Of a stretch of 20,573 bases of DNA, positions 3,174 to 20,573 are shown in pieces. Numbering within the stretch: the first letter of the stretch is position 1; each line of letters begins with the position of its first letter. Both the position numbers and the translations under genes were made by a program. This stretch comes from a virus, in IMG/VR virus record IMGVR_UViG_3300005613_000492, positions 1 to 20,573 of that record; one strand, given 5' to 3'. Below the pieces are notes generated by a model. The model did not search any database, had not been told where the DNA came from, and saw only the letters and a list, made by a program, of their open reading frames with translations.

Positions 3174-3482
3174 ATGGCTACTTCAAATAATAGTTTTGGA
3201 CCTTATTCGATAGACTCCAATACAGTTACACATAAAAACGCTCAGGTTAGAACCGTATTCAATGCTACCCAGTTCGATAATCTAATTGAAAACTTACAAA
3301 CAGATTATACTTACACTGAAGGTTATGTTCCTATTGGATTTGAGCACAGACCAGATCTTATCTCCCAAGCGTTTTATGGTACACCTAAAAACTGGTGGCT
3401 TTTGATGGTAGCTAACAATATAAATGATCCTTTTGAAGGATTCAATGTTGGTGATAAAATTCTAATTCCTAATGTCGAGTAA
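3174..3482 (+). CDS. Baseplate wedge protein, gp53-like with LysM-type C-terminus
   Basis: 102 aa. The C-terminal third (residues 66-102) has the pattern of T4 gp53 and related LysM-like tail proteins: Phe-Tyr-Gly-Thr-Pro, then Asn-Trp-Trp-Leu-Leu-Met-Val-Ala-Asn-Asn, then Asp-Pro-Phe, and finally Val-Gly-Asp-Lys-Ile-Leu-Ile-Pro-Asn, the 'GD.I.IP' ending typical of a LysM fold. In T4, gp53 clamps neighbouring wedges together. In P2-type tails the small gpX-like LysM protein holds a comparable position next to the hub gene. The N-terminal 60 residues are polar and would be the wedge-binding arm. The gene lies 1 nt after the stop of the tube-initiator gene and its own stop overlaps the hub start (TAATG). 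At 102 aa it is shorter than T4 gp53 (about 196 aa) and a little longer than P2 gpX (67 aa). Confidence 0.8.
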   Translation: MATSNNSFGPYSIDSNTVTHKNAQVRTVFNATQFDNLIENLQTDYTYTEGYVPIGFEHRPDLISQAFYGTPKNWWLLMVANNINDPFEGFNVGDKILIPNVE

Positions 3483-5698
3483 TGTTTATAGTAGCTTCTA
3501 CAAATAAAGAAATAATTGAGAAGGTTGATAATGAAACTATTATTTCTCAAGAATTTCTGAACAGTTTACCTAAAGAAGGTATTCTTCTAAACTTGTTTGG
3601 AAACTCTGGTATAAGATCATTCAAGCATACTGTAAGTCGTAACACTACAGAAATAGTAATAAAGTTTTTAGATAAAGGAATAAATAATAGCTTTGAAAGT
3701 CTTTATGTAAATAGAAATAACTTACAAGTTTTACACGATATAGAGAAGTACGCAAATATTGCTGATATGTTACTGACTGACGACTTCAAAGACAGCTATC
3801 CAAAAGAAGTAGATCCTTATATTTATGTTATTTATGGAGCAGGGCCAAACAAATCAGGTCCTCACATTTGTACAATAAAAACTTTCAATATATCCGCTAA
3901 TAGAGGCGCAGTAGAGTATACTTTAGTTTTAGTTCCAGCAGGAAGAGATTTAGAAGGAGAAATATTTCAAACTATTCAGAACTCTATATCTACAGCCCCC
4001 GCCAAATTATATTTTGAAGGATCTACACAACCGATTGATATTAGTAAACCAACCCCTTATGGACTAGATAAGTATTCTAAGATAAATCAAACACAATACG
4101 GTCCTGTAAGTCCAAGTCAAGGACAACCTATTGATTATCACCTACTTCTAAAAGATCTAATAAAAAGTTATGTTAGAAATATTACAGGAACTAATAATGT
4201 ATTAGTATTACTTCCTGATATAAATGTAATTTGTGGAGATAAGCTATATCAGTTTTATGAAAATACTACATTTTCAACTAGAAACCAAAGTCCAGAAGCA
4301 AGTTTTGCTCTTTTCAAATTTCTAAGAGCGGAGGATGATAAAACAACTTATAATTTTGTAGATAACTATCTTAGAGTGGTAAACGCAGTAGAAGCTTTTG
4401 TAAAAGCTTTTACTCCTGTAATTGAAATTGAAAAAGATTTCAAAAAATCAACCAATATAAATGTACTTGATCCTGGTTTTACTTCGGGGTTTTTCAAGGA
4501 TCATACGCAGTTTACGACTTTTGAGGAGTATGTTAAATATCATATAGATAAATATATACTAAAATTAAAAATAAAATCTGATTTCCGGGATCGCCCTCCA
4601 TCCATCTTACGAGATTTATTTAGAACTATAGTTCAATTATCTGATAATGTTGATTCCTATAGATTTAATATTTATACTGAAACCAATTCAAAACTAGTAA
4701 ATGTAGTGAAACAAGATGATCTAAGCCTAACTGATCTTTTAGTAGAAGATGCTTATGATATAGGAAATCTCCAAAATGTGGGAAGTCAGTTAGTTATAGT
4801 AGGAGAAGAAACCTTAATTAATAAATATTTATATGGACTTGATAATCTTTTGGATATTACTAATCAAGAGTCCTCTCAGCAACTTTTAGGGTTTCCATTA
4901 CATCCTTTAGATTTTGCTGTTTTTGATAATTCTAAATTTCAGAAAAAGGTAGCAAATACTATTTCAAAAAGAGAAAACTTTTTTCCAATATTTGTAGATG
5001 AAAAAAATACAACTGAAGGTATAGGTTCAAACCCCTATAAAGGTGAGATTGGTATTATTGATTACACTATAAATGATAAGAACACTTTTAGAGGCAGACT
5101 AGAAAATATAAATGTAGAAAAGGCTAATAATACTATAAAGATAGTTGGACTAGCTCCTAAAGTAGTTGCTGATTACCTTGACCCAGAATCCGATACTGAT
5201 GTTGTAGATCTTAGACAATACATTGAATCCTTATACAATGTATTGAATACTAATAAAGATACCTTAGATAACTTTTTCAAGTCACTAGTCGGCAGTATTT
5301 CTCTAAGCAATACTACTCCAATAGAAGGACTTGATCTTAAAGAACTAACGGAACAATTAATATCAAGCATCTTAGCTGATTTAGAAAAAGAAAAAACAGA
5401 AAAAGGAACAACTTTAGGACCTAATTTAGTTTACGAAGATTCATTATTTACTGATACAGGTAACCTAAAATCACTAATATCAACAAAGAATAAAGAGTCT
5501 TTCAAACTATCTCTTTCACTAAATACTAGATTTTGTCCTCAGTACGGCTCCTATTATTTAATAGGTAAAACTGCCAAAGTAAAAATTTCTCCTGGTCGAT
5601 TTAGACTCAAAATACCAGAGTATTATACTATTCTAGGGTATTCACACACAATGACTGATAAAAATTTAGTATCTCAGTTTGAACTATTGACACGATAA
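3482..5698 (+). CDS. Baseplate hub protein, gp27/gpD-like, enlarged
   Basis: 738 aa. It should form the trimeric ring between tail tube and central spike, the role of T4 gp27, P2 gpD and Mu gp44. Support is positional and structural: it lies between the LysM/gp53-like gene and the spike gene. Residues about 114-157 form a beta-rich block (Tyr-Val-Ile-Tyr-Gly-Ala-Gly, then Val-Glu-Tyr-Thr-Leu-Val-Leu-Val-Pro-Ala-Gly). The last 70 residues (about 670-738) end in Tyr-Tyr-Thr-Ile-Leu-Gly-Tyr-Ser-His-Thr-Met-Thr, then Phe-Glu-Leu-Leu-Thr-Arg, like the 'y.v.g.sH.....f.l.l' closing strands of hub proteins. The middle (about 220-560) is charged, Asp/Lys/Asn-rich and of mixed helix and strand. It is nearly twice the length of T4 gp27 (391 aa), so the middle is probably inserted material. 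No peptidoglycan hydrolase motif is visible. It starts in a TAATG junction with no clear ribosome-binding site. Confidence 0.65.
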   Translation: MFIVASTNKEIIEKVDNETIISQEFLNSLPKEGILLNLFGNSGIRSFKHTVSRNTTEIVIKFLDKGINNSFESLYVNRNNLQVLHDIEKYANIADMLLTDDFKDSYPKEVDPYIYVIYGAGPNKSGPHICTIKTFNISANRGAVEYTLVLVPAGRDLEGEIFQTIQNSISTAPAKLYFEGSTQPIDISKPTPYGLDKYSKINQTQYGPVSPSQGQPIDYHLLLKDLIKSYVRNITGTNNVLVLLPDINVICGDKLYQFYENTTFSTRNQSPEASFALFKFLRAEDDKTTYNFVDNYLRVVNAVEAFVKAFTPVIEIEKDFKKSTNINVLDPGFTSGFFKDHTQFTTFEEYVKYHIDKYILKLKIKSDFRDRPPSILRDLFRTIVQLSDNVDSYRFNIYTETNSKLVNVVKQDDLSLTDLLVEDAYDIGNLQNVGSQLVIVGEETLINKYLYGLDNLLDITNQESSQQLLGFPLHPLDFAVFDNSKFQKKVANTISKRENFFPIFVDEKNTTEGIGSNPYKGEIGIIDYTINDKNTFRGRLENINVEKANNTIKIVGLAPKVVADYLDPESDTDVVDLRQYIESLYNVLNTNKDTLDNFFKSLVGSISLSNTTPIEGLDLKELTEQLISSILADLEKEKTEKGTTLGPNLVYEDSLFTDTGNLKSLISTKNKESFKLSLSLNTRFCPQYGSYYLIGKTAKVKISPGRFRLKIPEYYTILGYSHTMTDKNLVSQFELLTR

Positions 5699-5700
5699 TT

Positions 5701-6843
5701 ATGGATCTTTGTTTAGCAGAAGTTGTTGAAAACTTTGATATAAAAAGAGCAGGAACAATAATGGCTCTTATTTACGGGGATGGAGCTAATCCTCAAGATG
5801 TTCTTATGTCTTCATACTATACTACAGGAGAACAAGGAACAATAAAAGCCCCTGCTCCTAGAAAAGGTTCTACAATTGTTGTATGTAAACCAAAAGGATC
5901 AGTATACTGGATTTATTTAGCGACCTGTGATGGCTGGGCTTGGCAAGGTACAAATGGAGATCCCCTAGAAAAAAGAACTCCTCTATTTGACAGAGGAGTA
6001 GACCGAGGAGGTAAGGATAAGGGAGGATCTGGATTTGACAGTGATCTTGTAATCCAAAATGATATGGGATGTGGTTTAGAGTTATCTCAAACTTTTGGAA
6101 CAAAGGGTAATAAGGTTTATACTAAACTCTACACAGGAAATAAAAAGTATGTGAGACTTACCGATAGTAATCCAAATGATAACATTGAATTGAATACAGG
6201 AGCAGGAAGCTCTTTCAAACTAACGGCTTTCCCTACGGCCTTAGCTGCTCCTCAACAAGGAGCTATGTTAGATACAGTTGGAGGCCAAAGATTTCTAAGC
6301 AGAAATGGAAAAACCTGTATGATGGTACAGGATGGTAGTGAACTAAATTTTATCAATAATTCTACAGGATTCAACTGCCTTCAAGGAGCAAACACAGCAA
6401 CCGCTGGAAACATCAATATGCAAAGCCAGTCGGGTAATATTCACTTATTTACAAAGTCCCCAGAAAGTAAAATATTTATCGAGTGTCTTCCTGGAGAGTC
6501 TTTAGGACAGTCAGCAGGGGCTACAAACGATATTGTAATTAGGGCTGGAAATGCGGGAGGTGGAGGAACCGCTGTAGGTCGAGTAATTATAGAAGGTTTT
6601 GAGCTACAACTAACTACTACAAACCTATCGGTTCAAGCACTAGGATCTATAAATGTTCAATCTAATGGTCAAATAAATTTTGATGCTGATCTAGGAATCA
6701 ACTTTAGATCGTCAGGTCCTATAAATATAGATGGACAGGCTATAAATCTAAATTCAAACTTAGCTTCAACCGCAACCGTTTCCAACAGTCCAGGGCAACC
6801 TATAAATAACTACGGTCCCATAGGTGTTTTTCAATATTTCTAA
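5701..6843 (+). CDS. Central spike protein, gp5/gpV-like, OB-fold plus beta-helix
   Basis: 380 aa. This is the membrane-piercing spike below the hub. The first 90 or so residues have the look of the N-terminal OB-fold of gp5/gpV proteins: short strands with Ala-Pro-Ala-Pro-Arg-Lys-Gly-Ser-Thr-Ile-Val-Val, as in the 'P..G..V.V.F' strand of that fold. The middle is Gly/Asn-rich. From about residue 235 strands alternate with Gly-Asn turns. Residues 315-353 are a clear short-period repeat (Gly-Ser-Ile-Asn-Val-Gln-Ser-Asn, Gly-Gln-Ile-Asn-Phe-Asp, Leu-Gly-Ile-Asn-Phe-Arg-Ser, Gly-Pro-Ile-Asn-Ile-Asp, Ala-Ile-Asn-Leu-Asn-Ser), as expected for the triple-stranded beta-helix of spikes. Unlike T4 gp5 there is no lysozyme domain. 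No PAAR-type tip protein is encoded in the window. The gene follows the hub stop by 2 nt. The ATG has no Shine-Dalgarno motif; an in-frame ATG 60 nt further on (5761) would remove part of the OB fold and is less likely. Confidence 0.82.
   Translation: MDLCLAEVVENFDIKRAGTIMALIYGDGANPQDVLMSSYYTTGEQGTIKAPAPRKGSTIVVCKPKGSVYWIYLATCDGWAWQGTNGDPLEKRTPLFDRGVDRGGKDKGGSGFDSDLVIQNDMGCGLELSQTFGTKGNKVYTKLYTGNKKYVRLTDSNPNDNIELNTGAGSSFKLTAFPTALAAPQQGAMLDTVGGQRFLSRNGKTCMMVQDGSELNFINNSTGFNCLQGANTATAGNINMQSQSGNIHLFTKSPESKIFIECLPGESLGQSAGATNDIVIRAGNAGGGGTAVGRVIIEGFELQLTTTNLSVQALGSINVQSNGQINFDADLGINFRSSGPINIDGQAINLNSNLASTATVSNSPGQPINNYGPIGVFQYF
6643..6759 (+). repeat. Spike beta-helix short-period repeat
   Basis: Codes for residues 315-353 of the spike. 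Five successive units contain Ile-Asn-(Val/Phe/Ile/Leu), spaced mostly 8 residues apart, usually with Gly one or two positions before the Ile. This resembles the octapeptide periodicity of the T4 gp5 C-terminal beta-helix, with the difference that this repeat set is short. Confidence 0.6.
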
Positions 6844-6846
6844 ATC

Positions 6847-9489
6847 ATGGCTTCATTTGACGCACAATCATTCATCAACATAACAGGAAACACAGGAGCA
6901 GATCCAATAACCGCTTTTGGAACTTCTTTTGGAGTTCCAAGCTGTATGCTTAGTTTAGCAAAAGAAGCATTATCTCTTTTACCGTTTCCAGCGTTGGCGC
7001 TTATGCAACAGTCTTTGGCCGAGGGTAAGGCTAGAGCACGGGAGTTTATATCAGGATTATATCAAAAACTGCTTACCGAACTTGGTTTAGTAGAAGATGA
7101 AAATGGAGGATTCAAATTACCTTTTGGTGCTGATTCAGACATTCTGGCTGCGATCAATGACCTAGTAGCCATGATTGGGGTTATTACAGAGCTTGCTAAT
7201 GAAATTCAAGATATTATTGAAAATATAAATGATGTAATAGCCTGTTTCAAGCAGTTTGAAGAAATACAAAAAGCACAGGCAGGAAACATCGCAGCCCAAC
7301 AAGGTTCTTTACCTTTACAAGCAGGTTCTGATTTAGCTTTTGCTAACGCACAGTTAGCCGTACAGTTTATCAACGATGCTAATAGACAGCTTACACTGAT
7401 AAACGAAATATTTCAAGAGAGATTACAAAATCCTGATCTAGAGCCCTGTATTCCAGATAGTGCTGAGTTTGATCAGTTAGCTGCTGGAAGCAATATTAGA
7501 AGATGTCCTATTGAAGATCCTGGATTAGCTCAAGAAGGGGATGGAGTATTTAGACTAACTTATGGTCCTCCTGTAAGTGTCGCAGGGCAGTATGTACTAA
7601 CCTCTGATGGTCTTTATTATGATTCTCGCTCTGGTGGGCTAGATCCTGTATTTCTAAGTATTTCGGGAATAGTTCAACCTGGAGATAAATGGAAGTATGA
7701 CTACGCACCAAACTTAGGAGGAAAGGGAGATCAGGTATCCATTGAAAGTCTCAATAAGTTTACTGATAATATATTTGATTTAGACGATATTGATGACAGT
7801 CAAGGGATGCAACTTTACTACGATAATGATCACTTTTTAGCGGTTCTTAGACAGCAAAGAGATAAGCACGCATATGATCTTTCAGGAGAGCTACTTGATT
7901 TTATTAATGAGTATGGAGAAAACTCAGCTATTGTTAATAACCAAAGACAAGTTATTATTTCTGAAATAGCAAATCATAATGATAAAATTAATAGAAGAAA
8001 AAAACAAATTGAGGTTATAGTAAAAGTTCCAAATTTATATGGGGATGAAGGTCCTACCTTTGCTCCTGGAGACATACCAATCAATGATTTTTCCGTATTA
8101 GAAAAATATAATTTAGCTGTTGATTTAGAAAAACAAAAAGCATTGATTTTCTCACAAGCTGAAGTAAACGATATAGTATTACCTCTTACTCCTAAGTTTG
8201 TAAAGAGTTCAGCAAAAGCACCCTCCATCGGGTTTGAACACCTAACAGTACCTAATGTAGGAAAGGGCAGTATTATTTATAGTCCTTCAGGAGGAACAGA
8301 AGCAACCGTATTATCTCTTACTGATCAAATTGCAACTGATGGACTGTTTGCTATTTATAATTTTTTAGATACTAGAACTACACTACCCTCTTCAACAGAC
8401 TTTAACTTGACAAACTGTGCTACGAATGATATGTACAATAATGCACAGTTGATAGGAACTAATCCTCAAAGTATATTCTTCTCAGGATTAGCAATACCCT
8501 ATCTAGAGGGTATAGTCAAAAATAAGTCTACATTTACACAAGGAGCCTCTGCACTCGGTAGCGTAGTTAGACTACCCGACACCGAAGAGTTTAGAGAGCT
8601 AACTTACAAGAATCAAGGATTCTCTATGGAGTGCTGGGTTCATGTTCCAAATATAACTGACGCAGGAGTTGGCTGGTTAAGTGGAACAACATCATCCTTG
8701 ACGAAGGTTTTATTAGCTAGTGAGAATACTGGTGTTGCGTCTGGAGTATCTGCGGTAAACTACTTAGGTCAGATTCCTGATCTTGATTTCTTAGAAAATA
8801 GGAAAGGAACAGATTTTGTAAAAGGCTTGATTTGTGGATTTACTAGAGATAGAAGAATTACTCAGGAAAATACAGGGTATAGTAATGATAACGCAGAAAA
8901 TGACCCAGCCTCTTCGTTAAGTTTCTTTATGGCTCCAACCATTTCTAGAGATGCTTCTTCTCTATCTTGGATCAATAATGACGATTGTAATGATGTAGAG
9001 TCTTTCTATAAAATGAAAGTAGACTTATCATCAAACTCTTATATTGGAAATGTTTCATCTCAATTTGTTCTTATAGCTATAACGGTAGATCCTCCAAAAG
9101 ATCTAATATCCTTTTACGCAGATGGAAATCTTTTGACCACCTCTGCCATGTCAACTGTTTTTGGAAATGATGCTAGAACCTCAATAGGTCTTCCCTCTTT
9201 CAAGAAACCCAATAGTTTTGAGTACACAACCTCAACTGTTGATGGTCCAACTACAGTAAAAACTGGTCCTAAAAATAACCCTTTCTATACGCCTTGGATT
9301 GTTGGTGGAGGGTGGACTGATGGTATGTATTTAAATGGAAACTTTATGGGTGGAGATCGTGGAGGTATAGTAAGCGGTCTTCGAGGCCACATAGGAAGTT
9401 TGAAGTTTTACTCAAAGCCTCTAAATACAGAAGAGATTACTCAGAACTATAAAGCGCAACAAGGCTTCTTCAAAAATATCAAAATGTAA
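6847..9489 (+). CDS. Large baseplate-associated structural protein with C-terminal LamG-like domain
   Basis: 880 aa. Residues about 30-170 are helical and Ala/Ile/Glu-rich, with a likely coiled coil around 110-165. A beta segment near 230-300 carries Gly-Gln-Tyr-Val-Leu-Thr-Ser-Asp-Gly-Leu-Tyr-Tyr-Asp-Ser. Residues about 331-396 are highly charged and probably coiled coil. From residue 499 the protein looks like a laminin-G/concanavalin jelly roll: Gly-Leu-Phe-Ala-Ile-Tyr-Asn-Phe at the start, Phe-Ser-Met-Glu-Cys-Trp-Val-His-Val at about 593, Phe-Tyr-Ala-Asp-Gly-Asn-Leu near 755, and the closing Gly-His-Ile-Gly-Ser-Leu-Lys-Phe-Tyr-Ser-Lys-Pro-Leu near 855. Such domains bind carbohydrate or protein, so host-surface contact is the likely role (inference). 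It sits between spike and gp25-like genes, where P2 and Mu have no gene, and its stop overlaps the gp25-like start (TAATG). I do not recognise the N-terminal half as a named family. Confidence 0.68.
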   Translation: MASFDAQSFINITGNTGADPITAFGTSFGVPSCMLSLAKEALSLLPFPALALMQQSLAEGKARAREFISGLYQKLLTELGLVEDENGGFKLPFGADSDILAAINDLVAMIGVITELANEIQDIIENINDVIACFKQFEEIQKAQAGNIAAQQGSLPLQAGSDLAFANAQLAVQFINDANRQLTLINEIFQERLQNPDLEPCIPDSAEFDQLAAGSNIRRCPIEDPGLAQEGDGVFRLTYGPPVSVAGQYVLTSDGLYYDSRSGGLDPVFLSISGIVQPGDKWKYDYAPNLGGKGDQVSIESLNKFTDNIFDLDDIDDSQGMQLYYDNDHFLAVLRQQRDKHAYDLSGELLDFINEYGENSAIVNNQRQVIISEIANHNDKINRRKKQIEVIVKVPNLYGDEGPTFAPGDIPINDFSVLEKYNLAVDLEKQKALIFSQAEVNDIVLPLTPKFVKSSAKAPSIGFEHLTVPNVGKGSIIYSPSGGTEATVLSLTDQIATDGLFAIYNFLDTRTTLPSSTDFNLTNCATNDMYNNAQLIGTNPQSIFFSGLAIPYLEGIVKNKSTFTQGASALGSVVRLPDTEEFRELTYKNQGFSMECWVHVPNITDAGVGWLSGTTSSLTKVLLASENTGVASGVSAVNYLGQIPDLDFLENRKGTDFVKGLICGFTRDRRITQENTGYSNDNAENDPASSLSFFMAPTISRDASSLSWINNDDCNDVESFYKMKVDLSSNSYIGNVSSQFVLIAITVDPPKDLISFYADGNLLTTSAMSTVFGNDARTSIGLPSFKKPNSFEYTTSTVDGPTTVKTGPKNNPFYTPWIVGGGWTDGMYLNGNFMGGDRGGIVSGLRGHIGSLKFYSKPLNTEEITQNYKAQQGFFKNIKM
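8341..9474 (+). other. LamG/concanavalin-like domain region within the 880-aa protein
   Basis: Codes for about residues 499-876 of the structural protein. The opening strand (Leu-Phe-Ala-Ile-Tyr-Asn-Phe), the Glu-Cys-Trp-Val strand, the Ala-Asp-Gly-Asn turn and the final Ile-Gly-Ser-Leu-Lys-Phe-Tyr strand occur in the order found in the LamG_3 (concanavalin-like) superfamily. It is longer than a single typical domain (about 160-200 aa), so it probably includes insertions or an additional beta domain. The call comes from motif reading only. Confidence 0.55.
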
Positions 9490-9956
9490 TGGCAACTAAA
9501 GTTACTGAAAACTTATTCGGAACAGTTCCCTCTAACTTTACTAAAAAATCTTTTGAATCAAAAAAGAAAGAAGTTTTTGGTCTAACTTATCCGTTATATA
9601 AGTATAAAGAATCTGCTGGATACTTTTCTAAATCGTCAGGAATTGAACTAATAAAAGGAGCAATTACTCAGTTAGTGAAAACTGAAAAAGGAGAAAGAGT
9701 GATGCTTCCTAGTTTTGGATGTAGTCTTAGACGATTTTTATTTGAACCTTTAGACGAAAACGTATTTCAAAGTATCAAATCAGAAATAACTACACAGTTT
9801 AATAAATATATACAAGGAGCTAGAATTCTAAATCTATCAATTTTTTCAGCAGGACAAGACGGAACTTTTGAAGGCGGCGCTATAAAAGTTTTACTAAGAG
9901 TTCAACTTCTCAATGAAGAGTATTCTATATTCGATGTACCAGTAACTTTATCATGA
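9489..9956 (+). CDS. Baseplate wedge protein, gp25-like (GPW/gp25 family)
   Basis: 155 aa. In contractile tails this protein starts sheath assembly: it sits at the inner wedge and presents a strand-swap platform copied from the sheath C-terminus (T4 gp25, P2 gpW, TssE). The family core is plain at residues 64-90: Lys-Thr-Glu-Lys-Gly-Glu-Arg-Val-Met-Leu-Pro-Ser-Phe-Gly-Cys-Ser-Leu, then Phe-Leu-Phe-Glu-Pro-Leu, matching the 'T..GER.m.P.FG..L...lFEP' signature. An amphipathic helix follows, then beta strands to the C-terminus. The first 40 residues (Lys/Ser/Phe-rich) are longer than in minimal gp25 proteins, of about 130 aa. The gene begins at a TAATG junction and ends in TGA that overlaps the next start (ATGA), so it is translationally coupled to its physical partner, the gp6/gpJ-like wedge protein. 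Confidence 0.93.
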   Translation: MATKVTENLFGTVPSNFTKKSFESKKKEVFGLTYPLYKYKESAGYFSKSSGIELIKGAITQLVKTEKGERVMLPSFGCSLRRFLFEPLDENVFQSIKSEITTQFNKYIQGARILNLSIFSAGQDGTFEGGAIKVLLRVQLLNEEYSIFDVPVTLS

Positions 9957-11521
9957 ACTTATCAGGAACCCTACAATCAGACTTCATGAAACTGACAAGT
10001 TTGCCTAATAGAAAAAAGGCAAATCTTATAAATTTTGCATCTAGTGATTTTCTAAGTCTAAAACAATCACTAATTGATTATGCTAAAGCAGTTTATCCAA
10101 ATGACTACTCATACTTCATTGAATCTGATTTAGGTATTATGTTTATTGAGCTAGTAGCTTATATGGGTTCTGTTATGTCAATGAAAGCAGACATGCTGGC
10201 TAATGAAAACATCTTACAAACTGCTAGACAAAGAGCAAGTGTAAGAAAGCTCCTTGATCTGGTTGGTGTCAAAATGAAAGGACCCCTTTCCTCTGCTGCT
10301 GATGCTGCTATTACTTTTAGCAAAACTCCGAATACTGTAACAATTGCTGGGGCGGATAGAGTTATTAAAACTAACTCTCCTGAAGATGGAGAAACCCTGA
10401 GTTTTACAGTTTATAAAGTGTCTAATGGACAAATTGATCCTTTAGCAAATGCAACTGCTGATCTTACTTTTGATGTTACAGCGGGTACATACTATGATGA
10501 TCTAGCTATTCAGGAAGGAGCCTTAGCTACGGAATCAGGAACTTTTGGAACTACAGAGGGAACTAAAAGTATAGCACTAACGCAATCCCCAGTCATTGAC
10601 GGGAGTGTTCAACTATACATCACTTCCACAAATACTGATGTTGAAGGAGCATATACCGAAGTTGAAAATGTTTTCTTTGCCTCTGGATCAACAGACAGAG
10701 TATTTGAAATTGTTTATGATGATAACTACGCAGCAACCCTAGTGTTTGGTAATGGGTTAGCTGGTATTTCTCCAGACGCAGATGCTAGTTATTTTGTAAC
10801 CTACAGAATTGGTGGTGGTTCTAGAGGAAATATTGCAAAAGAAAGCATCAACACTAATATAAATGTAACTACAGGAACTGGAGCTACTGCCACAATTAGA
10901 AACATTTCCTTAGCTACTGGAGGGGCTAACGCTGAGACGGTTGAAAAGGCTAAAAAATACGCACCGCTAACTTTTAGAAGGCAAGATAGAATTGTTACTC
11001 TAGAAGATTATAGCGTATTTTCCAATTCTTTTATAAGCACTTGGGGAACCGTGGGTAAAGCAGTAGCAGTTACAAGAAAAGCCTACGCATCCGCTAATGT
11101 AATTGATATTTATGTTTTAGAAAAAGCCTCAGATATTCAGTTACAAAAAGCCACTCCAACTTTCAAAACTAGTCTTCTCGCTGCGATAAACAAAAAGAAA
11201 ATGGCTACTGATGAAGTTGTTATTGTAGATGGATTGATTCGTACTCTAGATCTTGTGGTCACTATCAAAGTAGACGAAGAAGAGAAGAATAACCAGACTC
11301 AGATTGTAAACAAGGTAAGAGATAGTATTTTATCCTATATGAATGTCGATAATAGAGAGTTCGGACAGGCTTTAAATATAGCTGAACTAAATAGACAAAT
11401 TTTTGAAATTGATGAAGTAAGATTCTCAACAGTAGACAATGTAGAAAAAGATATAAAGGTTGATTTCAATGAGATTATTCAGCTAAACAACTTGACAATA
11501 AATGTTGAACTTCTAGCCTAA
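9953..11521 (+). CDS. Baseplate wedge protein, gp6/gpJ-like (Baseplate_J family)
   Basis: 522 aa. It forms the inner iris of the baseplate by dimerising between wedges, as do T4 gp6, P2 gpJ and Mu gp47. Residues about 28-105 carry the N-terminal family block: Asp-Tyr, then Phe-Ile-Glu-Ser-Asp-Leu-Gly-Ile-Met-Phe-Ile-Glu-Leu-Val-Ala-Tyr, followed by Ala-Asn-Glu-Asn-Ile-Leu-Gln-Thr-Ala and an Arg-rich helix. At about 265-295 is the hallmark Phe-Gly-Asn-Gly-Leu-Ala-Gly, then Tyr-Arg-Ile-Gly-Gly-Gly-Ser-Arg-Gly-Asn-Ile. At about 340-352 Pro-Leu-Thr-Phe-Arg-Arg-Gln-Asp-Arg-Ile-Val-Thr-Leu matches the 'R.vt..Dy' start of the C-terminal domain. Length is close to T4 gp6 (660 aa) and above P2 gpJ (302 aa). 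The ATG at 9953 overlaps the gp25-like stop by 4 nt. No Shine-Dalgarno motif is visible, so expression probably depends on coupling. Confidence 0.92.
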   Translation: MNLSGTLQSDFMKLTSLPNRKKANLINFASSDFLSLKQSLIDYAKAVYPNDYSYFIESDLGIMFIELVAYMGSVMSMKADMLANENILQTARQRASVRKLLDLVGVKMKGPLSSAADAAITFSKTPNTVTIAGADRVIKTNSPEDGETLSFTVYKVSNGQIDPLANATADLTFDVTAGTYYDDLAIQEGALATESGTFGTTEGTKSIALTQSPVIDGSVQLYITSTNTDVEGAYTEVENVFFASGSTDRVFEIVYDDNYAATLVFGNGLAGISPDADASYFVTYRIGGGSRGNIAKESINTNINVTTGTGATATIRNISLATGGANAETVEKAKKYAPLTFRRQDRIVTLEDYSVFSNSFISTWGTVGKAVAVTRKAYASANVIDIYVLEKASDIQLQKATPTFKTSLLAAINKKKMATDEVVIVDGLIRTLDLVVTIKVDEEEKNNQTQIVNKVRDSILSYMNVDNREFGQALNIAELNRQIFEIDEVRFSTVDNVEKDIKVDFNEIIQLNNLTINVELLA

Positions 11522-15984: not shown

Positions 15985-17018
15985 TGAAAGGTGAAGTAGA
16001 GGTTTGGTATGGCGATCAATTAATTGCCAAAGAGAGCAACATGATAGTTGATGGTGCTGGAAAGCATATTGCTGATATTATGACTGCCCCTTCATCACTT
16101 TCTGTAATAGAATCAGCTTCTGCCATTCTTCATACTTCTAACTACTCCATTCAAGCTATTTCTTTTGGAACTGGGAAGGATGCCTTCCCTGCTAATGCTC
16201 ATTACTACGATATCCCAAAAGGGGGTAGGGTAGTACCCACTTATAATGGAGGAAGCCAAGCTCTTGTACTAGTAAACTTCCGAGGAGATGGGAGTTCATA
16301 TGCCCCCGAGGCAGGACTTCCAGAAGAACCAAATCCAACAAGCACTAGGTTAGAAATGCGGGATACAAATGTTTCCGCAAACTGGGGCGATGGAGCAGTT
16401 AGTTCTGTATTTCCTGGAAACGGGCAGTTGGTAAACTTTATGCCTTCCGCTATAGTTGAATTCATTACTACTGATACCTCTCTAAGCACCACTAACTCAA
16501 AGAAACTATTAGGAAGTATCATGGGGGCTTTTCCACCAAATGCTACTAATGTTTCAGCAGTTGCTATATTTCCTGACGGGCAAGAGCTTTCTGCTTTAAT
16601 AGGATCCAGCACTTTTAATACTGCTAGTAGTATGGACTACTCAGGGTTTGTAAACAAAGTAGCTACTGCTGGAGGTGATCCTGAAGATGGTCTGATATCT
16701 AGTGGAGTTGTTCCTTATACGAATGGAATACTATTTCAAGTAGAGCTAGGTCCAGGAGATTTACAATGTGCTAATCTATATGGAGGAATCTACCACTTAG
16801 GATTATGGACTATTGATATGGAGCAATCTCTTCTTGCTGGAAATACTCCACCTTTTGCGTTTGATGTACTAAATAATCCTAGAAAATATCGCTTATTTTG
16901 TAGAAAAGGATTTACAATAGATTTAACTAGAAACTCCGATTCGGGCGGAACTCCTGGATTCACAAACTACGATCCCTCTCAAAATCTGGTAATAAAATGG
17001 AGACTAAAGTTTTACTAA
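15984..17018 (+). CDS. Baseplate-to-fibre adaptor-like structural protein (paralogue 1)
   Basis: 344 aa, family not recognised by name. The N-terminus has Gly-Glu-Val-Glu-Val-Trp-Tyr, then Glu-Ser-Asn-Met-Ile-Val-Asp-Gly-Ala-Gly. The C-terminus has Leu-Gly-Leu-Trp-Thr-Ile, then Tyr-Arg-Leu-Phe-Cys-Arg-Lys-Gly-Phe, and ends Ile-Lys-Trp-Arg-Leu-Lys-Phe-Tyr. These segments match the next gene in the same order. The 'GL[WF]' strand followed by a closing aromatic strand resembles N-terminal attachment domains of phage tail fibres. The middle is Ser/Thr/Gly-rich and predicted beta. By position between the gpI-like wedge arm and the fibre gene, it probably attaches or decorates the fibre base (inference); in T4 the equivalent place is held by gp8 to gp11. 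Start: TAATG junction, with GGAG about 12 nt upstream (GTGGAGATAG), one of the better ribosome-binding-site candidates in the window. Confidence 0.6.
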   Translation: MKGEVEVWYGDQLIAKESNMIVDGAGKHIADIMTAPSSLSVIESASAILHTSNYSIQAISFGTGKDAFPANAHYYDIPKGGRVVPTYNGGSQALVLVNFRGDGSSYAPEAGLPEEPNPTSTRLEMRDTNVSANWGDGAVSSVFPGNGQLVNFMPSAIVEFITTDTSLSTTNSKKLLGSIMGAFPPNATNVSAVAIFPDGQELSALIGSSTFNTASSMDYSGFVNKVATAGGDPEDGLISSGVVPYTNGILFQVELGPGDLQCANLYGGIYHLGLWTIDMEQSLLAGNTPPFAFDVLNNPRKYRLFCRKGFTIDLTRNSDSGGTPGFTNYDPSQNLVIKWRLKFY

Positions 17019-17019
17019 A

Positions 17020-17631
17020 ATGAATTTTTTAGAAGAAAAAAATATATCAGGACACTTACAGATAGTAAAGGTCTATAAATCAGGAGAAGAGGAAGTTCTT
17101 CTAGATGATAGTAATATTATTGTCTCTGGAATGGGCTTTTCGTTAAGTTACTTATTTTCAGAGTCTGGAGGAGGAGCTAACTTAGTTACTAAGTTTCAGA
17201 TAGGAAGATTTCAAGTAGGGGTTTCAGGCCCTCCAGCAGGAGGAGTTACAAGTGGAATCAACCAACTTAGTGGATCTCTAACTTCCATTGATGAGTATGG
17301 ATTAGGTAGTAACTTAGTATTAGAGAGTCTAACCTTACGACTAGATTCCGCTAATACCGTAGCAGGGCAGGCTTTTGCCAGAATTCCAGCGAGTAAAATA
17401 ACAAGAATTGGAGATTCCTCTGTAAGGTATACTCTTGTTTTAGATGAGGAAGCCTGTAATGGTCTGACTAGGGGAGGTAGTGATGCTCCTATAAATGAAA
17501 TAGGTCTTTTCGTAAATAACCCTGTAGGAACACCCGCCGATCAACCTGTTCTTGTAGCATATAGAACTTTCAGTGATATTTATAAAACTAGCGATTTTAG
17601 TTTAATCTTTAGATGGACAATTAACTTCTAG
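17020..17631 (+). CDS. Baseplate-to-fibre adaptor-like structural protein (paralogue 2)
   Basis: 203 aa, a shorter relative of the preceding protein. Shared features in order are a first strand pair around Gly-His-Leu-Gln-Ile-Val-Lys-Val-Tyr, then Asp-Ser-Asn-Ile-Ile-Val-Ser-Gly-Met-Gly, a Phe-Gln-Ile-Gly-Arg-Phe-Gln-Val-Gly segment, Asn-Glu-Ile-Gly-Leu-Phe-Val-Asn-Asn near residue 160, Val-Ala-Tyr-Arg-Thr-Phe, and the end Phe-Arg-Trp-Thr-Ile-Asn-Phe. The Glu-Ile-Gly-Leu-Phe strand, then a 'lva...f...yK' segment, is reminiscent of P2 gpH-type fibre N-terminal domains (DUF3751-like), so binding at the fibre base is plausible. It lies 1 nt after the preceding stop and ends in TAG, the only amber stop in the window, 2 nt before the fibre start. 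GGAG lies too far upstream (about 17 nt) to be convincing as a ribosome-binding site. Confidence 0.6.
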   Translation: MNFLEEKNISGHLQIVKVYKSGEEEVLLDDSNIIVSGMGFSLSYLFSESGGGANLVTKFQIGRFQVGVSGPPAGGVTSGINQLSGSLTSIDEYGLGSNLVLESLTLRLDSANTVAGQAFARIPASKITRIGDSSVRYTLVLDEEACNGLTRGGSDAPINEIGLFVNNPVGTPADQPVLVAYRTFSDIYKTSDFSLIFRWTINF

Positions 17632-17633
17632 TC

Positions 17634-20573
17634 ATGGCATTCAAAAGCGAAGATATTTATACAGCAAGCGGAAACGCTAAACTATTCAATGCTTGGACTC
17701 CTTATGTATCCAAGTTTGATACTAGCTCATTCTACAACTGGGAGCAGGATAATCTTCCTCTCTATGATTTAGAGGAGAGAACTTATGAGCTTTGGGAACA
17801 GCAAGGGTGGCCTACTTCTTCTGTTCCTGGTTTGGCTCTTACGGTTTCTGCTGATGCTGATGCTGTTAGTCTCGCTGCTGAAAGTACTCTATTTACTGAT
17901 GTAAGCTCTGCCATCGCCGCTATTCCAAAGGTGGTTCGTTTTCCTGTGCTTGTAGAGGTTGGAAGTTTTGATGAGCTTGGCCCTCTTGAGCTTCATAACT
18001 TCAGAATTGAAGAAGGCGGATCTATTGAGATTATTAATAGAAACTTTAGTAGATTTTATAACACTTCTTCTTTAGCAAAATCTTCGACCACTCCAGTGGA
18101 AAATTCAACACATTTAATGTATAACTTTGTATCTTCACTAGATATGTATAATACATTAAACGACGCATCTTGTGTTCATTTAGGTATTCCTGTGTTTAGT
18201 GCTACTCCTGGGTCTGATGCTAGATTCGTTACTGGAGCTAGAACAGGTGGTTTATTTTCTTATTCAAAGTTTAGTAATAAAGAAGGTGTTTTAGTAGGAT
18301 GTTTAGATGATGCTTATGCTTCTGTTACCACTGGTAACTTTGGATCTCGTCCTTATGAGGAACATGCTGGCCCGGACTATTCAGATAACTCACTATCAGC
18401 TTACGATATTTCAGCAACTTCTGATTTAGATTCCTCTATCCTAACTAGAACTCAAATCTCTGTAGATGATCCTCTTACAGGGAATCTCTACGGAAATGAT
18501 CTTACTAAGATCAGCGTAAAGAACTGTGATGGTCCAATCTATATTAGAAACTTCTTTGTAAACGGAACAAGAAATAATCCTGACTATGGAATCGAGATCA
18601 CTAACTCTGATGTAGTTCTAGAAAACTGCTCCGTAGCAAGAGCAAAAAGAGCAGGCTTTAAGTTTAACAACTCTAAGGTAGTTCTTTCAAGATCTGCGTT
18701 CTCTTATAGAAACTATAACCTAACTACCCCTACTACAAGAGAAGAAAAAGTTGGAGTAGGATTCCACGCTGTAAATAGTGAAGTTACAGTAAGCTCTAAT
18801 ATTGCTCCAGTAGGTGCTAGTGATGGAGCTAAGGACTATGGAGCATCAGGAGCCGATGTAACCTTTGTCGCCTCTAGAAACTACGCAGGATTTGTTCTTG
18901 ATAACTCAAAGCTGGTTGGTGGTTTTGGAAGAACTTCTATAACCAGTCCTCAAACTGGTGGAATCGTTGCTGCTGAAGCCAACTGGGGTCCTGGTATGCT
19001 TCTGAAAAACGCAGAAGTAGATCTTAGTGGTCTTATTGAAGTTTACTTCAACGATGTTGGGGTTGAATCTCATAACTCTATTATGAGAACTCAAAACTTC
19101 TGTGCTGAATCACAACAGAATGAAGGGTATTTAGGAAAGAACTCAGAGTTCTTACTTGATTCTGATTCTGCTCCTGGAACCGCTGGTCAGTCTGATAGAG
19201 CACAGATTCTTTTCCATAAGAATAGACAGCACATTGTAGCAAAAAACAATACAGACTTTAGTTTTAAAATAAAGGACTCTATTCCAAGCAAGTATGGAAA
19301 CTGCCTATTTGCTAGTTCTCATGGTGGAGAAATCTGGGGTGCTGCTGGAGATGCCGCTGCTGCTAGAAATATGCTTCCTTCTATTTTAGTTGAAGGGGGA
19401 TCTAACCTAGAACTTATTAATCCAAAAATAACAGTTAATGATCAAGACGGTCTTGGAGTCGCAATATATGGAGCAGCCATTAAAGCTATTAGAAACTCCT
19501 CCGCTAGGTTGTTCGGAACTTCTACTGGATGTACTTTCATTGGATCTCCCTTCGCAGAACAGAATGTAGCTGCTCTATACGCAAATAACTCAGTTATAGG
19601 GCTACATGGTCCTACTGTTATTGGAAACTTTGGTGTTGATGTCTTAGTAGAAAATAACTCTACACTTAACATTACACCTCCAACAATAAAAGATGAAAGA
19701 GGCTATGCTGCTAGTGCTTTCGAGTTAGGCGACGGAGCAAACCACACTAGCGTTGAACTTCACTCAACCAGAGCCTGCCTTGTTGCTGATAATAACTCTA
19801 CTATAAACCTAGTTGATCTTGGAGACTTTGAAGCAAACTGGGAAAGAACCGATACAGGAGTAGGCGTTTTAGCTAATCTAACTGATTTCTTTGAAAGAGA
19901 AAGTAATGTTAGTGGTCTAATCTACAAGGGTTCTTTACAGTTCTATCCAAACCCAGCAGACGATACAGTACTAGAGGATAATGGTCTAGATGCTATTAAC
20001 GCTATTACATCTAAGTTGCCTATTACTAACTCTTTCCCAACCTTCACTACAACAGATCCTTATCTAAATACTTTTATAGTTACTGATACTCCAGTATTAG
20101 GAACCAACGATACTGCAAGCAGAGGGGTAGTATCAAAAGGTGGGATGTGTGTAAGAGTTTTAGGAAACAGTGTTATTAACGCTCATAATGTTCACTTCCC
20201 ATCAGGAAATGAAGGTGGGTTCTTGGATGGTCTAATCTATAACGCTTCAGGATCTGATTGTGATAAGCTACTGATTTGGAACATCGCTGATAACTCAAGA
20301 CTAAACGCATCATATCTTGCTGTTAGTGGAAGCTACCCAACGGACGCCGCATATCATGGGCCTAGTGCATTGTATGTATCCTCTTCAGTATTTGGAACTA
20401 ATGATACCGCATATGTGATTGCTTCTGGTGCTCCTGCTGGAACTCCTGACACTGGACCTTTAAGCGTTCTTGATGCTTTTGGTGCAGGCAGTTCTCTTCA
20501 ATGGGGAACAACTAGAGGTATTGATGTAAATAGTCCGTTTGATAGATATTACCCTCCAGGAGGGATTGTTGCT
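17634..20573 (+). CDS. Tail fibre or tail spike protein with beta-helix-like repeats (3' end outside window)
   Basis: Open for 980 codons from ATG 17634 to the last base, with no stop, so the C-terminus is missing. The N-terminal 45 residues include Phe-Tyr-Asn-Trp-Glu-Gln-Asp-Asn-Leu-Pro-Leu-Tyr-Asp-Leu-Glu-Glu, probably a baseplate anchor. After an Ala/Asp-rich linker (about 67-90), the chain from about residue 100 is all-beta with a recurrent turn Asn-Ser-X-(Val/Ile/Leu), often Asn-Asn-Ser, at residues 324, 346, 381, 424, 621, 652, 675, 721, 845 and 887, as expected for a right-handed parallel beta-helix. This architecture is common in phage receptor-binding spikes, some of which cut polysaccharide; no catalytic residues can be assigned by eye. 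Codon choice differs from the 5' genes (more AAC, ATC and AAG). The start is 2 nt after the preceding TAG, with no Shine-Dalgarno motif. A long tail fibre without enzyme activity is an equal alternative. Confidence 0.75.
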   Translation, partial: MAFKSEDIYTASGNAKLFNAWTPYVSKFDTSSFYNWEQDNLPLYDLEERTYELWEQQGWPTSSVPGLALTVSADADAVSLAAESTLFTDVSSAIAAIPKVVRFPVLVEVGSFDELGPLELHNFRIEEGGSIEIINRNFSRFYNTSSLAKSSTTPVENSTHLMYNFVSSLDMYNTLNDASCVHLGIPVFSATPGSDARFVTGARTGGLFSYSKFSNKEGVLVGCLDDAYASVTTGNFGSRPYEEHAGPDYSDNSLSAYDISATSDLDSSILTRTQISVDDPLTGNLYGNDLTKISVKNCDGPIYIRNFFVNGTRNNPDYGIEITNSDVVLENCSVARAKRAGFKFNNSKVVLSRSAFSYRNYNLTTPTTREEKVGVGFHAVNSEVTVSSNIAPVGASDGAKDYGASGADVTFVASRNYAGFVLDNSKLVGGFGRTSITSPQTGGIVAAEANWGPGMLLKNAEVDLSGLIEVYFNDVGVESHNSIMRTQNFCAESQQNEGYLGKNSEFLLDSDSAPGTAGQSDRAQILFHKNRQHIVAKNNTDFSFKIKDSIPSKYGNCLFASSHGGEIWGAAGDAAAARNMLPSILVEGGSNLELINPKITVNDQDGLGVAIYGAAIKAIRNSSARLFGTSTGCTFIGSPFAEQNVAALYANNSVIGLHGPTVIGNFGVDVLVENNSTLNITPPTIKDERGYAASAFELGDGANHTSVELHSTRACLVADNNSTINLVDLGDFEANWERTDTGVGVLANLTDFFERESNVSGLIYKGSLQFYPNPADDTVLEDNGLDAINAITSKLPITNSFPTFTTTDPYLNTFIVTDTPVLGTNDTASRGVVSKGGMCVRVLGNSVINAHNVHFPSGNEGGFLDGLIYNASGSDCDKLLIWNIADNSRLNASYLAVSGSYPTDAAYHGPSALYVSSSVFGTNDTAYVIASGAPAGTPDTGPLSVLDAFGAGSSLQWGTTRGIDVNSPFDRYYPPGGIVA
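18600..20300 (+). repeat. Degenerate protein-level Asn-Ser turn repeats of the fibre
   Basis: At least ten copies of Asn-Ser-X-(Val/Ile/Leu) followed by a short strand occur between residues 324 and 890 of the fibre. Many are preceded by Asp-Asn or Asn-Asn. Typical forms are Asp-Asn-Ser-Lys-Leu, Asn-Asn-Ser-Thr-Ile-Asn-Leu and Gly-Asn-Ser-Val-Ile. The smaller spacings are about 22-46 residues, roughly one or two coils of a parallel beta-helix. The DNA copies are not near-identical, so this is structural repetition and not recent tandem duplication. Confidence 0.55.

Follow-up and report, generated by a model that had tools for sequence, protein, structure and literature searches.

The window, meaning the whole stretch of DNA analysed here, is a single virus record of 20,573 bases whose genes form a forward run. 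The run includes a gene for a tape-measure-like protein (phrog_8125, E 3e-5), then a gene for a 388-aa protein, and a gp53 gene (PF11246, E 1e-5) located upstream of the ORF considered in this work. A 738-aa hub candidate is encoded between the gp53 and spike genes. The spike gene (gp5/gpV-like; 5701–6843, + strand) showed a weak match to DUF2345; in addition, a Phage_base_V match was found for the spike gene of the relative L097, and the spike profile matched a baseplate hub/lysozyme protein of the phage Melnitz. Directly downstream, after a gap of 3 nt from the spike stop, an ORF of 880 aa is located (6847–9489, + strand) with an ATG start and a TAA stop. Its stop overlaps by 1 nt (TAATG) with the start of the gp25-like wedge gene (9489–9956, + strand; PF04965, E 2e-8), which is followed by the gp6/gpJ-like wedge gene (9953–11521, + strand; phrog_219, E 4e-35). 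The ORF coordinates and the profiles of the neighbours thus bear out the preliminary description of this DNA, which had placed the 880-aa ORF between the spike and gp25 genes. Downstream of gp6, the window encodes a 1487-aa protein that matches Tail_P2_I weakly and two smaller proteins; the last gene, for a beta-helix fibre (17634–20573), is truncated by the window end. No paralogy was found between the 880-aa protein and the 1487-aa or beta-helix proteins.

Relatives of the 880-aa protein are encoded by at least 422 IMG/VR stretches, and a tblastn search of 50,697 phage records revealed no match in an annotated isolate phage. The gene was located within 23 nt of gp25 in 172 of 174 distinct loci. 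When loci were instead collected through gp6, a starting point independent of the 880-aa-type gene, this gene was the immediate upstream neighbour of gp25 in 72 of the 74 assessable loci. The two exceptions were L319, where a 572-aa gene separates the 880-aa-type (LamG) gene from gp25, and L356, which is cut by the contig end and starts inside a sulfatase-bearing copy of the gene. These counts confirm the placement in the baseplate module and the conservation among relatives, the latter having been proposed as a check. Location in the baseplate operon and conservation in relatives, two features expected of a baseplate structural protein, were both found for the 880-aa protein. Compared with P2, Mu and the nearest huge phage, the gene is extra, and within the clade of its carriers it is a constant element of the module. 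Accordingly, the term "inserted" used in the preliminary description is valid in relation to those three phages but not within the clade, and a recent unique insertion was ruled out.

Several side observations concern variation in this region. The 572-aa gene of L319 (3238–4956) contains, by eye, GH-A-like motifs (VGNEM, FFTEG), and its product had no match in Pfam or PDB sequence searches. The module may gain genes often: tandem copies of a 203-aa-type gene are present in L062 and L063 (after o344), and L058 carries an extra stretch of about 2 kb (16060–18093) between the 1487-aa-type and 344-aa-type genes. A subfamily of the 880-aa-type protein has a length of about 1020–1050 aa (L106, L178, L181–L194 and L198). 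L106 and L107 owe their greater length to an insertion of about 100 residues inside the LamG domain.

Sequence conservation was estimated as the mean pairwise identity over 81 loci. For the 880-aa-type protein, the values were 0.38 for residues 1–230, 0.57 for residues 231–440 and 0.55 for residues 499–880, and for the baseplate neighbours they were 0.33 (spike), 0.44 (gp25) and 0.59 (gp6). The C-terminal lectin domain is therefore conserved just below the level of gp6 and above gp25 and the spike. When the same 15 phages were compared, the lectin domain reached an identity of 0.70; in the downstream beta-helix fibre, the value was 0.79 for the first 130 residues and 0.49 for the remaining body. 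The dN/dS ratio against a 98%-identical relative was 0.028 overall and 0.019 for residues 499–880, which indicates purifying selection; the values for gp6 and for the N-terminal part of L003 were excluded, as they came from an ungapped comparison across indels. Conservation and dN/dS together ruled out a chance or degenerate ORF. A hypervariable C-terminal tip, as in a host-range receptor-binding protein, was not found in the lectin domain. The preliminary description had suggested a second receptor contact; the higher identity of the domain relative to the fibre body speaks against a specific host-range contact and fits a constant lectin or structural domain better than a diversifying receptor tip. 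The pattern of selection, as read from these alignments, favours a constant function over a host-range tip that evolves rapidly.

Modeling using AlphaFold2 with an alignment of 119 relatives led to a model with a mean pLDDT of 77; an earlier model with 18 relatives (pLDDT 42) was discarded. The model contains helices at residues 47–78, 97–144, 160–194 and 329–397, a disordered linker at about 438–491 and a confident beta-rich C-terminal domain at about 492–880 with pLDDT mostly of 85–97. This agrees with the earlier view of helical and coiled-coil segments followed by a jelly-roll of about 380 residues from residue 499 or so. In the window, the predicted C-terminal LamG/ConA-like domain (residues 499–880) corresponds to 8341–9486 (+ strand). 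A Foldseek search against viral models gave matches with E ≤ 1e-6, mostly to ConA-like/LamG phage proteins (best E 7e-9), including virion/LamG proteins of S-PM2 and S-CAM4. Against the PDB, the matches were the lectin-type jelly-roll parts of large binding domains (E about 1e-6), several of them in structures complexed with oligosaccharides; at about 10% identity, these matches are informative at the level of fold only and do not imply common function or descent with those proteins. In the sequence searches, Laminin_G_3 (PF13385) scored 19.9 bits in the 880-aa protein, below the gathering cut-off of 27.6, and matched 4 of 18 relatives (best E 2.5e-4). The C-terminal domain is, according to the model, a LamG/ConA-like jelly-roll, as had been proposed, and it is the fold match rather than the sub-threshold sequence match that carries the support. 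No glycan-binding residues were identified in this domain.

The N-terminal half had been described as lacking a familiar family, and searches of Pfam, PHROG and PDB sequences with the 880-aa protein and its relatives likewise revealed no known family there; the PDB sequence searches gave nothing meaningful. The idea that the protein is a displaced homologue of a baseplate protein of cyanophages or Melnitz was rejected, as no hhalign match was obtained, with single-sequence templates that make this comparison insensitive. The helical region of residues 1–230 (6847–7536, + strand) is the most variable part of the protein. It is followed by residues 231–300 (7537–7746, + strand), where the mean pairwise identity reaches 0.59, yet the pLDDT of the monomer model is mostly below 55. 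A segment that is conserved and modeled with low confidence likely folds against a partner, which suggests that residues 231–300 may serve for docking or oligomerisation. The long helices at residues 329–397 (7831–8037, + strand) include a conserved RRKKQIE motif and, judging from the model, could form a coiled-coil stalk. Cys33 and Cys133 are present in 118 of the 119 relatives. Cys201 and Cys220 occur together in 27 relatives and are both missing from the other 92, and this co-occurrence suggests that they may have a paired role.

The 880-aa protein of the window carries no fused sulfatase. Among its relatives, at least three phages (L134, L275 and L276) encode an in-frame sulfatase after the lectin domain. 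In the 1727-aa protein of L134, a normal 932-residue form continues in frame into a sulfatase (PF00884, E 9e-28), and gp25 is the next gene. The same layout, with gp25 directly after, was found in L275 and L276 (53% identity to L134; PF00884 E 5e-30 in L276). As these three phages come from different samples and share the same junction, an assembly chimera was ruled out. L274 contains a partial copy of the sulfatase-bearing protein, and L277 contains an interrupted fusion copy with a locally repeated stretch that is possibly an assembly error. Such fusions are rare, with one found among 231 full-length relatives from the initial scans. A second kind of fusion was revealed in L278, where the 203-aa-type tail protein, here in an additional copy, is joined within a 1077-aa protein (3353–6583) to a sulfatase (PF00884, E 2e-24) related to the one fused to the lectin protein; the gene of this fusion immediately precedes the normal 203-aa-type gene and the fibre gene, and L279 carries a partial version. 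The formylglycine motif C-x-P-x-R is intact, as CSPTR or CTPTR, in L134, L275, L276, L277 and L278 (CTPTR in the last). The fused domain of the relatives therefore has both the domain and the C/S-x-P-x-R motif that define type-I (S1) sulfatases, and its PDB matches included solved carbohydrate sulfatases, among them carrageenan sulfatases. The repeated fusion of sulfatases at the C-terminus implies that this end of the protein is probably exposed and concerned with glycans, and the fusions are our best evidence for this. No report of sulfatases fused to phage tail-module proteins was found in the literature, the coverage of which was incomplete.

The window fragment itself does not include gp23. 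The Gp23 capsid protein is encoded in 11 of the 14 long records with the 880-aa-type gene, and the Gp23 capsids of the clade are 24–33% identical to those of T4, S-PM2 and RM378. In a Gp23 tree that leaves out published Far-T4 contigs, the clade and RM378 were placed apart from T4 and S-PM2, with RM378 on a long branch and the tree rooted at the midpoint only. Far-T4 phages have a Gp23-family capsid and are reported to be common in aquatic environments, and their marine members have been putatively linked to Bacteroidetes/Flavobacteriales (PMC4360716, PMC7198788, PMC13037479); RM378 is their only cultured representative. The features of the clade fit those of uncultured Far-T4 phages, and we infer that it may belong with them. 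A relative with 36% identity and the same gene order was found on a 130-kb phage-like contig (L097; QCKN01000003.1) within the Prochlorococcus genome record AG-409-P03. This contig is weak evidence of the host. The IMG/VR record L103 (129.9 kb) contains a relative 99% identical to the L097 copy, and by eye the stretch at 20–40 kb of the L097 contig resembles a set of sugar-nucleotide and glycosyl-transfer genes. Host assignment by psbA was dropped, as this gene was absent from every clade contig searched; the single match came from a different contig of that Prochlorococcus record.

With moderate preference, we consider the 880-aa-type protein to be a core baseplate protein of a large clade of uncultured marine myophages with Gp23 capsids, the N-terminal part of which protein docks while the conserved lectin head faces the glycans of the host surface. 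According to this explanation, the helical N-terminus, which is variable, and the conserved residues 231–440 would attach the protein to the baseplate on its spike or wedge side, and the helical stalk would carry the predicted LamG/ConA-like head outward. The head could bind a common host-surface glycan, for example a sulfated polysaccharide of the capsule or surface, in a conserved adsorption step distinct from that of the variable downstream fibre. In some lineages, the head-fused S1 sulfatase might remove sulfate groups, which would turn the protein into a receptor-modifying adhesin. Many LamG/ConA-like domains play protein–protein or purely structural roles, and the lectin domain seems to be conserved beyond what would be expected for a host-specific receptor binder, which counts against this explanation, as do the sub-threshold Laminin_G_3 score and the restriction of the sulfatase to a few relatives. 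The main rival is accordingly a purely structural component, that is, a rigid jelly roll that links the spike or hub to the wedges or fibres and binds no glycan; we regard it as a real, if somewhat doubtful, possibility. It would account for a lectin domain whose conservation comes close to that of gp6 and exceeds that of gp25, the spike and the fibre body, and for a gene essentially fixed in the clade, but the repeated fusion of carbohydrate-acting enzymes at the exact C-terminus speaks for an exposed end that faces glycans.

Two other alternatives seem much less probable. The C-terminal domain could itself be an enzyme degrading surface polysaccharide, such as a GH16-like glucanase or another hydrolase on a ConA-like scaffold, and the names in Pfam and viral databases do group this fold as lectins/glucanases; however, the GH16 pattern E-x-D-x-(x)-E is absent among the invariant and near-invariant columns of the 119-relative alignment, which makes this unlikely. 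A non-virion protein, for example an assembly chaperone or a cytoplasmic factor encoded in the operon, is the least probable assumption. Baseplate gene blocks of the T4 type do encode assembly factors (gp51, an annotated chaperone), and operon position alone does not prove incorporation, but the size, domain layout, strong conservation and sulfatase fusions of the 880-aa-type protein would fit a virion component better.

If the preferred explanation of a docked, glycan-facing baseplate protein is correct, a fixed protein of lectin fold would be a concrete and testable adsorption component for Far-T4-like phages. Sulfatases fused to proteins of the tail module would suggest that the sulfate groups decorating bacterial surface glycans are a target of phages. 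More tentatively, the protein may be a conserved, baseplate-borne lectin platform of Far-T4-like ocean phages, some lineages of which would use active, virion-attached sulfatases both to read and to strip the sulfated surface polysaccharide of marine bacteria at adsorption.

A comparison with known systems indicated that P2 (V-W-J-I) and Mu (45–48) have the same gene order as the window, namely spike, gp25-like, gp6/J-like and I-like genes. However, V and W of P2 and 45 and 46 of Mu are adjacent, whereas the window contains the 880-aa gene at this position, so the earlier statement that P2 and Mu lack a gene here is correct. The huge phage LR756511 encodes homologous T2006, gp53, gp25, gp6 and gpI in the same order, but there gp25 comes immediately after the ORF in the spike position, and this phage lacks an 880-aa-type relative. 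The Methylophilales phage Melnitz has no such relative at this position. The Far-T4 phage RM378, with a Gp23 identity of only 25–33%, has no detectable one, and the genome size of Far-T4 phages is similar (143.7 kb with 33.4% GC for one published genome). The virion structural protein Q5GQW3 of S-PM2 and the protein A0A1D8KMJ9 of S-CAM4, both T4-like marine phages, share the fold class of the C-terminal domain according to Foldseek, with about 10–15% identity to the 880-aa protein; in S-CAM4, no 880-aa-type gene lies directly upstream of gp25. The fused domain of the relatives resembles type-I (S1) carbohydrate sulfatases in PF00884 and the C-x-P-x-R motif and differs in being attached to a baseplate-module protein. 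Structural proteins of phages with LamG/ConA-like domains are already known. New within the literature searched are this family as a fixed component of the baseplate module of a clade and the sulfatases fused to its members.
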